Shown piece by piece: positions 23,482 through 46,452 of a DNA stretch of 64,000 bases. The stretch is from contig JAIBDD010000012.1 of assembly GCA_024679565.1 (NCBI GenBank), positions 21,769 through 85,768 on the forward strand, given 5' to 3'. The position numbers and the translations under genes were made by a program. The stretch comes from Bacteroidota bacterium. Its GTDB lineage: Bacteria; Bacteroidota; Bacteroidia; NS11-12g; UBA9320. The first letter of the stretch is position 1; every line of letters starts with the position of its first letter. A model generated the notes under the pieces. That model was not told the origin of the DNA. It saw only the letters and a list, made by a program, of their open reading frames with translations, and made no database searches.

Positions 23482-24549
23482 ATGCCACTATACATGGACA
23501 TCCACACAGTTGATACTGACGAATTTTCGGCTGAAGATGTGGTGAAAGCACATATGGAAGACCTCGCTATTCAGGACAATTTTGGTGTAAAGCAACTGAA
23601 GTATTGGGTAAATGAGCAAGCCAAGACCATCTTTTGTTTGATGGAAGGTCCAGATAAAGATGCGTGTAATCAAGTGCATCTTCAGTCACATGGAAACACC
23701 GCATGTAACATCATTGAGGTAGCAGACAATGAGTACAATTTGTTTATGGGACAAGGCTCAGATATAAATGATCTTGCAACCACCAACTCAGGAGAACTTG
23801 ACCCAGGGTATAGAACAATCCTTTTAACCAATATTGTGGCTTTCAAAAAAGAAGACCAAGAAATACACAGACAAGTATTGAAGGTTATTACCGATCACAA
23901 CGGTATAATCGTCCGAGAACCAGATCATCAAACGATGGCAACGTTCATGTATGCCGATGACGCAATAACATGTGCAACAGCCCTTAAAGAATTATTTGAC
24001 GTTAAAAACGAAAGTCTGGAATATAATTTGGCCGTTGTAAGCGGTAGACCTGTAGACGAAGAAGGTGAAACGTTTTTTAAGGAAACAAAGTTGAGGGTTA
24101 ATGGTCTATGCGCATTAGGCTTGAACCGAATGCTATATCTCGACAAGGAAACGATTGCTTTATCCAACAAAGAACTGTCAGGTCACTACGAAAAACATAA
24201 CAACTTTACCGTTTTAGATAATGATGACCTTCGTTTCTCGACATATCTGTCTAAGATTATTCAAGACAACCTTACACGATCTGACTTTACCACCGCTGGG
24301 TTATTTACCTCACTGGGCTTTAGTAAATCGCAAGCAAGTCGAAAAATTAAGGTCTTAACTGGGATGTCACCAAATCAACTAATACAAGAGTCTCGTTTGC
24401 TTACTGCACTAAGTGCAATGGGGAATTCCCAAAAAACAATAGCTGAAATAGGCTATGATTCTGGTTTTAATAGCCCTACTTATTTTACCAGGGTTTTTAA
24501 GAAACGCTTTAGGGTTTCTCCCACAGATTTTGCTTTACAATTAGTATAA
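23482..24549 (+). CDS. AraC-family regulator with N-terminal DUF4242-like domain and degenerate class III cyclase-like middle domain
   Basis: N-term MPLYMDIHTVDTDEFSAEDVVKAHMEDLAIQDNFGVKQLKYWV; middle TILLTNIVAFKKEDQEIHRQVLKVITDHNGIIVREPDHQTMATFMYADDAITCATALKELF; C-term AraC HTH (KTIAEIGYDSGFNSPTYFTRVFKKRFRVSPTDF). Confidence 0.85.
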   Translation: MPLYMDIHTVDTDEFSAEDVVKAHMEDLAIQDNFGVKQLKYWVNEQAKTIFCLMEGPDKDACNQVHLQSHGNTACNIIEVADNEYNLFMGQGSDINDLATTNSGELDPGYRTILLTNIVAFKKEDQEIHRQVLKVITDHNGIIVREPDHQTMATFMYADDAITCATALKELFDVKNESLEYNLAVVSGRPVDEEGETFFKETKLRVNGLCALGLNRMLYLDKETIALSNKELSGHYEKHNNFTVLDNDDLRFSTYLSKIIQDNLTRSDFTTAGLFTSLGFSKSQASRKIKVLTGMSPNQLIQESRLLTALSAMGNSQKTIAEIGYDSGFNSPTYFTRVFKKRFRVSPTDFALQLV

Positions 24550-24566: not shown

Positions 24567-24596
24567 TTGAATCAATTGTTTCATCATTTGAATCAA
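24567..24596. promoter_or_regulatory. Putative AraC-type operator: TTGAATCAA direct repeat, 21-bp period
   Basis: Identical 9-mers at 24567-24575 and 24588-24596, upstream of nitrilase and just downstream of the AraC gene. Confidence 0.55.
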
Positions 24597-24667
24597 CCTT
24601 GAAATAGTTATGCCTTAACAGGCTGCAACTTTGCATCATAGAGTTTCATTAAAACAAAAGAAATAAC

Positions 24668-25588
24668 ATGATGACTAAAACAAAAATAGCAGCAGCACAA
24701 TTAACACCTGTATTCCTCAATAAAGAGAAAACGGTAAAAAAAGCATGTGAAGCAATTTTAGAAGCAGGTGCGAAAGGCGCCAAAGTAATTGTATTTCCAG
24801 AAGCATTTATATCGGGTTACCCGGATTGGGTCTGGTTAATTCCAAATAGCAAAGGAGCAGATTTAAACGCTTTGTATGTTGAACTCGTTGAAAATGCCGT
24901 AACGATCCCAGATAATTCCACAAATCAACTATGTGAGGCAGCTAAACAAGCTGGTATTAGTGTTGTAATGGGGATGCATGAACGCAACTCCGAAACAAGT
25001 GGGACAAGTCTATACAATAGCTTATTGTTCATAAGCGATGAAGGTGAAATAACAGGCAAACACCGTAAGTTGATACCAACCGGTGGTGAAAGGCTTATTT
25101 GGGCACAAGGAGATGGGTCTACATTCAAATCGTACGATACAAAAGCAGGAAAAATAGCAGGCTTGATTTGCTGGGAAAACTATATGCCTTTAGCCAGAAA
25201 CGCAGTATATGAAACAGGTGCTCAAATACTAGCTGCACCTACTTGGGATAAAAGCCCTAACTGGCAGCAATCCATGCAGCACAACGCACGTGAAGGAGGG
25301 TTGTTCGTAGTCAGCACGTGTATGGCCATTCGCAAGAATGATATACCCGACGAATATGATTTTAAAAACCTATATCCCGAAGGAAGAGAATGGATCAATC
25401 CTGGCAATAGTTGCATCATAGATCCTAAAGGACAAATCATTGCTGGACCATTAGAAGCCGAAGAAGGGATTCTTTACGCAGATATTGATTTAAATACAAT
25501 TACGGAGGCAAAGCGCATGTTCGATGTGGTAGGTCATTATTCAAGACCTGATGTCTTCAATTTTTCAGTTAAAACCAACCAAAAATAA
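24668..25588 (+). CDS. Nitrilase (carbon-nitrogen hydrolase family)
   Basis: Glu VFPEAFISGYPDW, Lys KHRKLIPTGGERLIWAQG, Cys GLICWENYMPLAR catalytic triad motifs. Confidence 0.92.
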   Translation: MMTKTKIAAAQLTPVFLNKEKTVKKACEAILEAGAKGAKVIVFPEAFISGYPDWVWLIPNSKGADLNALYVELVENAVTIPDNSTNQLCEAAKQAGISVVMGMHERNSETSGTSLYNSLLFISDEGEITGKHRKLIPTGGERLIWAQGDGSTFKSYDTKAGKIAGLICWENYMPLARNAVYETGAQILAAPTWDKSPNWQQSMQHNAREGGLFVVSTCMAIRKNDIPDEYDFKNLYPEGREWINPGNSCIIDPKGQIIAGPLEAEEGILYADIDLNTITEAKRMFDVVGHYSRPDVFNFSVKTNQK

Positions 25589-25598
25589 CAAACAGAAT

Positions 25599-26087
25599 AT
25601 GTCAAATTTAAACACTCGTGCTAACGCACTAGCAGAGCGACTAATTACAGGCGCCAACACACTTGCAACCTTCGCAGAAGGATTATCAGATTCGGAATGG
25701 AACAAACCTGTTGTGGGAGATGGCCGAACAATTGGAGTTGTAGTTCATCATGTCGCCAATGTTTATCCTCTTGAAATAGAACTTGCACAAGTTTTGGCCT
25801 CAGGTAATTCCATTACAGAAGCGACTGTGGATGTTGTAAATGAAATGAATGCCCAGCATGCAGAAGAATTTGCACAGGTGAACAAACAAGAAACGCTGGC
25901 ACTCTTACGAAAAAATAGTAAAGTGGCTGCTGATTCGGTTCGTTCCTTCACAGATGCAGAATTGGATCAATCTGGTAAGGTATCACTGAATGCAAATGCA
26001 CCTCTAACTGCTCAGTTCTTTATTGAGGACCACGCCCTTCGTCATAGTTATCATCATTATGAAAAGATTCTACAAACTATAAAGTAA
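25599..26087 (+). CDS. DinB/YfiT-superfamily protein
   Basis: Four-helix pattern with putative metal-binding His (VVHHVANVYPLEIE, EDHALRHSYHHYEKI). Confidence 0.75.
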   Translation: MSNLNTRANALAERLITGANTLATFAEGLSDSEWNKPVVGDGRTIGVVVHHVANVYPLEIELAQVLASGNSITEATVDVVNEMNAQHAEEFAQVNKQETLALLRKNSKVAADSVRSFTDAELDQSGKVSLNANAPLTAQFFIEDHALRHSYHHYEKILQTIK

Positions 26088-44890: not shown

Positions 44891-46452
44891 TTTACGATAA
44901 TACTTAGCCCTAGAACCAAAAATATATAAACGGCTATTTTGCCAATGTAATCTCCTGTTTTACTGTAGAAGGTTTCGTACGTCAATTTTGGGGCTTTTAC
45001 CTGAAGATAACCTTGTTTCCAATAACCAAGTTGCTTTAAGACCTTACCGTTGTCGTCGATAACGCAACTTATGCCAGTATTTGCACTTCTGATAACATAC
45101 CTTCTATATTCAATGGCACGTAATCGTGCATAGTGCATATGCTGTTTGTGTCCAGGGGTGTTGCCCCACCATCCGTCGTTCGTTATTACCGCAAGAATGT
45201 CTGCTTTTTGGTGTACAAATTCTCCAACGTAATCTCCGAATACTGATTCGTAACAAATGAGCGGTGCTATAGATAGTTGTGCATTTTTGGCTAACGTATA
45301 GTGGAAGGTTTTGGCCGAACGGTCTTTCCCTAGATTGCCAGATACCCCGCCTAAGTTTAGATCTAGTATGTTGTCGAACTTTCTAAATACATATGGAAAG
45401 GGTAGGCTTTCTACTCCAGGAACAAGTTTAGATTTATGGTATGTTGCGGTGCTGCCATCTGCGTCAATTTGAAGCGCAGTGTTGTAGGAATCGTAATATT
45501 TGTCGGCAGGTTCGTAATATCGGGGATAGGGCGGGAGCTCTTCTCCGTCTTCATAGAATCGATGTGTGGAGGCTCCAACAAGAATGCCAACACCCGGATG
45601 ATCTATTAAAAAAGACTTAAGCCTGCGCACGCCATAATCTTGACTGATGAATTTTTCATTCATATTGCCTACCAAGGCAGTTTCTGGAAGGATAATTAAT
45701 TTGGTATTCTCCGTGATGCCAGATTTGCATAGAGAAATAAAGGTGTCTATTTGTGCACGTTTGGTGCCAGGTTCAAATTTTAGATATGGATCAATGTTTG
45801 GTTGAATGACAAGAATCTCATTTGACGTGAAACAGAACGATTGATTGTTTTTTAAGTACGATGACCATAGGATAGGAGCGACTATCAAAATAGCAATTGC
45901 TGCGGTGGTCAACTTCCTATACTTGCTAAACGAATTGTATATAAATGCATTAACGCTCAGTATCCATAAACTACCACCAAGAGCGCCAGTATATTCATAC
46001 CATTGAACAAGATTTGGAGAAGTGGCAAAACCATTGCCAAGCGTCAACCAAGGATAGGCCAAACCCCAACGAAAGTGCATGTACTCAAATGTTAGCCAGC
46101 GTACAATGAAGAAAAATAGTGCACGTCCTTGACCAATGAACCGTTTTGTGATTCTGTACAATACAAATGGAATTAACATAAGTAGGGTGTTGGCGATCAA
46201 CATAAAAACAGCACCTCCAGGTGAGGCATTCCATACCCACCATGTAGAAAGGAGGTTAAAGGTGAACAAGCCTAAATATGTGTATAAACCATAAAACTTA
46301 CCTCTTCCTTTTTCGCTAAAAAAGGTTTCTAAATAGAGAAAAGGTATAAGACCAATAAAAAATAAAAATGGTAAAGTATTTGGCGGCCAACCTAGAGAGA
46401 GCAAACAACCACCTAATAAGGCTATCGCGATATAGATTAATCGTTTTTTCAT
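44866..46452 (-). CDS. lnt: Apolipoprotein N-acyltransferase
   Basis: LGWPPNTLPFLFFIGLIP; ILPETAL; PLICYESVFG; ITNDGWWGNTPGHKQHMHYARLRAIEYRR. Confidence 0.95.
   Translation of the reverse strand: MKKRLIYIAIALLGGCLLSLGWPPNTLPFLFFIGLIPFLYLETFFSEKGRGKFYGLYTYLGLFTFNLLSTWWVWNASPGGAVFMLIANTLLMLIPFVLYRITKRFIGQGRALFFFIVRWLTFEYMHFRWGLAYPWLTLGNGFATSPNLVQWYEYTGALGGSLWILSVNAFIYNSFSKYRKLTTAAIAILIVAPILWSSYLKNNQSFCFTSNEILVIQPNIDPYLKFEPGTKRAQIDTFISLCKSGITENTKLIILPETALVGNMNEKFISQDYGVRRLKSFLIDHPGVGILVGASTHRFYEDGEELPPYPRYYEPADKYYDSYNTALQIDADGSTATYHKSKLVPGVESLPFPYVFRKFDNILDLNLGGVSGNLGKDRSAKTFHYTLAKNAQLSIAPLICYESVFGDYVGEFVHQKADILAVITNDGWWGNTPGHKQHMHYARLRAIEYRRYVIRSANTGISCVIDDNGKVLKQLGYWKQGYLQVKAPKLTYETFYSKTGDYIGKIAVYIFLVLGLSIIVKWINQQIG

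Follow-up and report, generated by a model that had tools for sequence, protein, structure and literature searches.

The window, that is, the whole 64,000-nucleotide stretch of DNA analysed here, carries on its + strand a gene for a 355-aa regulator (23482-24549) composed of an SCO4226-like domain, a putative degenerate class III cyclase-like domain and an AraC-type HTH. It is followed by a nitrilase gene (24668-25588, + strand; 306 aa; CN_hydrolase, PF00795, E = 3e-53; CWEN motif) and, 10 bp after it, by a gene for a DinB-superfamily protein (25599-26087, + strand; PF12867), which are predicted to be the first and second genes of one transcript. Such a nitrilase-DinB transcript is plausible, given the 10 bp between the genes and the order nitrilase-then-DinB, which 11 of 14 regulator loci share. 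The best NCBIfam match of the nitrilase is TIGR04048 (Nit6803 family), with 222.1 bits, below the family cut-off of 502.6.

Between the regulator and nitrilase genes, TTGAATCAA is present on the + strand at 24567-24575 and again at 24588-24596, with a start-to-start distance of 21 bp, exactly as the first-pass annotation had reported for a perfect 9-bp direct repeat. This is the sole occurrence of the exact pair in the window. The core 9-mer differs from its own reverse complement at one base and is thus nearly palindromic (TTGAWTCAA). By itself, within the window, the repeat is at chance level and statistically unremarkable: for a window of the same composition, the expectation is 0.5 perfect 9-bp direct repeats with a spacing of exactly 21 bp, and two are present. 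The second, TCGTAATAT at 45491-45520, is unrelated and chance-expected. The TTGAATCAA pair stands above chance because of its conservation across genomes, not because of single-window statistics.

Conservation of the paired site among regulator orthologues

When GTDB species genomes were searched for the regulator, 13 relatives with 56-83% identity were recovered, one of which (L031) comes from a same-genus genome also reached as G001; with the window, this gives 14 orthologues. The paired site was found 6-27 bp past the regulator stop codon in all 14, so that the phylogenetic footprinting proposed in the annotation as a check is successful. Alignment of 15 sites defined a unit of ~17 bp, TTGAATCAATTGTTTCA...TTGAATCAATTGTGAAA; the 9-bp perfect repeat is therefore real, but the half-site is longer than the 9 bp first proposed. 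In the window, the distal half-site, TTGAATCAATTGTTTCA, spans 24567-24583 and the proximal half-site, TTGAATCAACCTTGAAA, spans 24588-24604, 21 bp from the distal one, both on the + strand. The -7-like element noted earlier upstream of the nitrilase corresponds to CAACTTTG (24626-24633, + strand; consensus TAnnTTTG); it is conserved and at a fixed distance from the operator, with its TTTG 42 bp after the proximal TTG. Pairwise identity over the 15 sites was 0.94 for the distal half-site, 0.86 for the proximal half-site and 0.81 for the -7 box, compared with 0.43-0.53 in the flanks, gap and spacer.

With up to three mismatches allowed, the extended operator is present as a single copy in 13 of the genomes and as two copies in the fourteenth (L038), the reversed pattern has no match in the 14 genomes, and the extended operator was found in 0 of 393 other Bacteroidia genomes. 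Recurrence of the pair elsewhere in the genome, which would have spoken against an operator, was not seen. A wider regulon in the window's genome was rejected, as only one site was found with at most three mismatches, and so was autoregulation in the window, as no operator was found upstream of the regulator in the 14 orthologues (best score -11.8 bits). The L038 contig is labelled Candidatus Margulisiibacteriota yet bears a typical Bacteroidota locus, and it is probably a mis-binned Bacteroidota contig.

Association of the site with the regulator

These data raise a key question: does the site belong to the nitrilase or to the regulator? The gene behind the operator is a nitrilase in 12 of the 14 loci, while a SAM methyltransferase takes its place in L037 and an FAD-dependent (berberine-bridge type) oxygenase in L041. 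The second operator copy of L038 precedes a methyltransferase of the same family as that of L037, and this family is also found farther along the operon in L032, L033 and L040. A search for nitrilase orthologues in 301 genomes of the Wocania family returned 16, with 73-91% identity. The operator was present in two of them (54-60 bits), the only ones with the orthologous regulator. At the remaining 14 nitrilase loci (73-85% identity), the best operator score was -8.9 bits or lower, and at 13 of these no such regulator was detected in the 1.5 kb upstream. Nitrilase loci that lack the regulator also lack the site, and regulators next to other genes retain it; the operator therefore goes with the regulator and does not appear to be tied to the nitrilase. 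The site is thus conserved beside an AraC-type regulator and absent without it, as an AraC/XylS operator should be.

At the last of these 14 loci (L098 and L148, which are the same locus; G483:C1, about 1770567-1772747), a 76% identical nitrilase lies behind a ~30% identical regulator, with no recognisable operator behind the latter. It seems that the nitrilase became associated with this regulator family on two occasions.

Layout in distant family members

In the same 301 Wocania-family genomes, a regulator homologue was identified at E <= 1e-20 in 66, most matches being full-length. Together with the earlier loci, this set provided 94 distinct full-length regulators, 11 of which directly precede another regulator. 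For 30 of 68 distant non-tandem regulators, a matrix trained on the 14 orthologues only gave a higher score than any of 30 dinucleotide shuffles. The matrix was then refined with the distant set, which makes it partly circular; a site of more than 15 bits was now detected in 52 of 69 downstream regions, compared with 0-1 of 67 gene bodies and 10 of 69 regions upstream of regulators. No downstream site could be recognised for about a quarter of the distant regulators, among them the nitrilase-adjacent L098. The distant homologues retain direct repeats about 21 bp apart; their half-sites (TGGTTCAAAATT / TTGAATTAAATGTA) lose the palindrome but still show the direct spacing of 21 bp and the distance of 42 bp to the -7 box. 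Distances between operators and between regulators were correlated (Mantel r 0.53). Coevolution specific to the HTH found no support, as the correlation was no stronger for the HTH than for the other domains and partial correlations did not single it out.

Two variants of the layout were observed. Six relatives within the clade of 40-53% identity (L062, L063, L064, L065, L066 and L089) carry four tandem half-sites, spaced by 21/20/21 bp, downstream of the last regulator, that is, two operators in series. In L089 (G579:C18), L090 (G640:C16) and L091 (G635:C7), three or four paralogous regulators are arranged in tandem; an operator-like site precedes the start of the first gene by about 113-119 bp, and in most arrays there is a site after the last regulator as well.

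The genes behind the operators are mainly FAD-dependent oxygenases (24), stand-alone SCO4226-like proteins (15) and nitrilases (12), along with truncated globins (11), DinB proteins (11, never first) and a few cupins, SnoaL-like and NnrU-like proteins. This set suggests oxidative or detoxifying functions for the target genes. The predicted layout of regulator, docking site and promoter thus recurs across many Bacteroidota before quite different enzymes. Searches of open-access PMC text returned no paper on this regulator family or on SCO4226-AraC fusions.

Promoter geometry

One additional piece of evidence was provided by the -7 box, which lies outside the matrix and was not used in finding the sites. 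In 60 of 66 sites, a -7-like motif,.A..TTT[GA], follows the proximal TTG at exactly 42 bp, whereas the mean for other offsets is 0.39. The counts lack phylogenetic independence, although identity between the distant regulators and that of the window is only about 28-53%. The distant sites alone have it at exactly 42 bp in 46 of 52 cases, and the strict TAnnTTTG form is found there in 24 of 66 sites (mean 0.014 at other offsets). The window's own -7 box is imperfect, with C for T at the first base, and no conserved -33 element was detected between half-site and -7 in the aligned sites, where spacer identity is 0.46.

The sigma-A -7 box of Flavobacterium, TAnnTTTG, spans -12 to -5 (PMC9723704), and placing CAACTTTG at these positions predicts a transcription start near 24638. 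Counted from this predicted start, the proximal half-site would occupy about -50 to -34 and the distal one about -71 to -55. This placement would be close to the araI1-I2 arrangement of AraC. With 42 bp to the TTTG of the -7 box in 60 of 66 sites, the proximal half-site lies next to or overlaps the upstream promoter element in fixed phase, as in AraC/XylS operators.

Domains of the regulator

The AraC-type HTH occupies residues 277-350 (Pfam PF12833, HTH_18, E = 2.7e-17), and in the AlphaFold model it superposes on 3lsg at 1.5 A, in keeping with a two-HTH AraC DNA-binding domain. The model was built from 14 sequences (mean pLDDT 77, pTM 0.67), and its domain arrangement is uncertain. The N-terminal SCO4226-like domain (about residues 4-80; PF14026) matches SCO4226 (4oi6) at 1.9 A, with a TM score of 0.82 on the target and ~29% identity, which identifies it as a homologous ferredoxin-like domain. 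The Ni-1 ligands of SCO4226 are Asp43, Ser46 and His76 (PMC4186839). The corresponding positions in the regulator are N44, A47 and I78, invariant in all 14 orthologues; nickel is therefore disfavoured as the signal, and the ligand is probably another one.

The middle domain (about residues 110-231) is a putative degenerate class III cyclase-like domain, proposed from the AlphaFold model and Foldseek. Its sequence match to cyclase 3mr7 is weak (E = 0.003), and its structural similarity to class III cyclases (Ma1120), in a model for which only 14 sequences were available, is about 0.53 in TM score on the target. In this weak match, whose register is uncertain, none of the 14 orthologues retains the GDG metal-binding motif; the window has D148-H149-Q150 in its place, and the residues vary among orthologues. 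Cyclase catalysis is therefore unlikely.

Proposed mechanism and alternatives

We are highly confident that the repeat is the operator of the adjacent AraC-type, putatively small-molecule-sensing regulator, which would activate the nitrilase-DinB transcript. The AraC/XylS regulator-operator pair originally suggested for the nitrilase thus gains support from sequence comparisons: the site is conserved in 14/14 orthologues and absent without the regulator, and the prediction extends to the family. What we observe directly is the conserved repeat, its presence together with the regulator, the constant distance to the -7 box, the order of the genes and the domain make-up of the protein; that the regulator binds the site directly and as a dimer, that it activates rather than represses, and that a ligand controls it, we infer. 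In this model, the two direct half-sites of ~17 bp, 21 bp apart, would be occupied by a dimer of the regulator, the proximal one being immediately upstream of the -7 element used by RNA polymerase, in the place of the -33 element. Bound there, the dimer would activate transcription of nitrilase-DinB and, in some species, also of the methyltransferase, and a small molecule, which is probably not nickel, would be detected by the N-terminal SCO4226-like and cyclase-like domains.

The position of the proximal half-site where a -33 element would be points to an activator. Taken alone, it is also compatible with the adjacent regulator using the same operator to repress the nitrilase promoter, blocking the polymerase's contact with the -33 region until ligand releases it. 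We regard such repression as improbable: a repressor site would tolerate more positions than the one invariant 42-bp spacing seen in ~60 promoters, and a weak -7 box without a conserved -33 element is the look of activator-dependent promoters. Because the spacer holds no conserved -33 element and the -7 box is imperfect, activation of the nitrilase promoter, rather than its repression, is the best reading of the sequence. It is very improbable that the neighbouring regulator is incidental and that the repeats are bound by some other factor encoded elsewhere or by a pair of palindrome-binding dimers. The near-palindromic core 9-mer would suit such dimers, but the site is found only with this regulator, and the distant half-sites dispense with the palindrome while the 21-bp and 42-bp spacings persist. 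A chance repeat, for which the expectation of 0.5 in the window would leave room, or non-regulatory sequence at the 3' end of the regulator gene (e.g. for RNA processing) can practically be dismissed, as chance is already contradicted by the footprinting and both conflict with conservation well above the flanks in 14 genomes at one copy per genome (two in L038), with the fixed distance to the -7 box and with the site upstream of the first regulator in tandem arrays.

With activation by the adjacent regulator as the preferred reading, it also seems reasonably likely that SCO4226-like/degenerate-cyclase/AraC proteins represent a large undescribed Bacteroidota family of one-component sensors with a non-nickel ligand, each with its own downstream operator-promoter cassette and with swapped enzymes. 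If so, the cassette downstream of the regulator would read half-site, 21 bp, half-site, 42 bp, -7, and the detoxifying or oxidative enzymes swapped in behind it would include nitrilase, FAD oxygenase, truncated globin, stand-alone SCO4226 protein and cupin. Few regulator-operator pairs are known in Bacteroidota, and their promoters are unlike those of E. coli; here the sequences of dozens of species allow the pair, the promoter geometry and the target genes to be predicted, which provides a testable promoter set and a possible part for inducible expression. The poorly understood SCO4226-like domain is placed in a likely sensory role, and its missing ligands suggest that nickel is not sensed here.

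Comparison with known systems

AraC/XylS-family activators with direct-repeat operators include AraC at araI1-I2 and XylS at Pm. The present system resembles them in its HTH_18 domain, in two directly repeated ~17-bp half-sites 21 bp apart and in a proximal site that abuts or overlaps the upstream promoter element. Unlike in AraC, whose sensor half is a cupin-like arm, the sensor half here is SCO4226-like plus cyclase-like; furthermore, the promoter is of the Bacteroidota -7/-33 type, and the operator comes after the regulator gene and faces an enzyme gene, at a fixed 42 bp to the -7 box. E. coli AggR offers a parallel: the site of this AraC-family activator is close upstream of the promoter -10, at 21-22 bp, and overlaps the -35 (PMC6392122). 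The N-terminal domain is homologous, at ~29% identity, to the nickel-binding protein SCO4226 of Streptomyces coelicolor (PMC4186839; PDB 4oi3/4oi6), but it is fused to a regulator and has N44, A47 and I78 in place of D43, S46 and H76. The middle domain has a weak sequence match and a possibly similar fold to class III adenylate/guanylate cyclases (3mr7; Ma1120, 5d0e and 4wp3), but their GDG metal-binding motif appears to be replaced in it. The nitrilase is far below the cut-off of the Nit6803 family (TIGR04048) but resembles it in its best NCBIfam match and CWEN motif.
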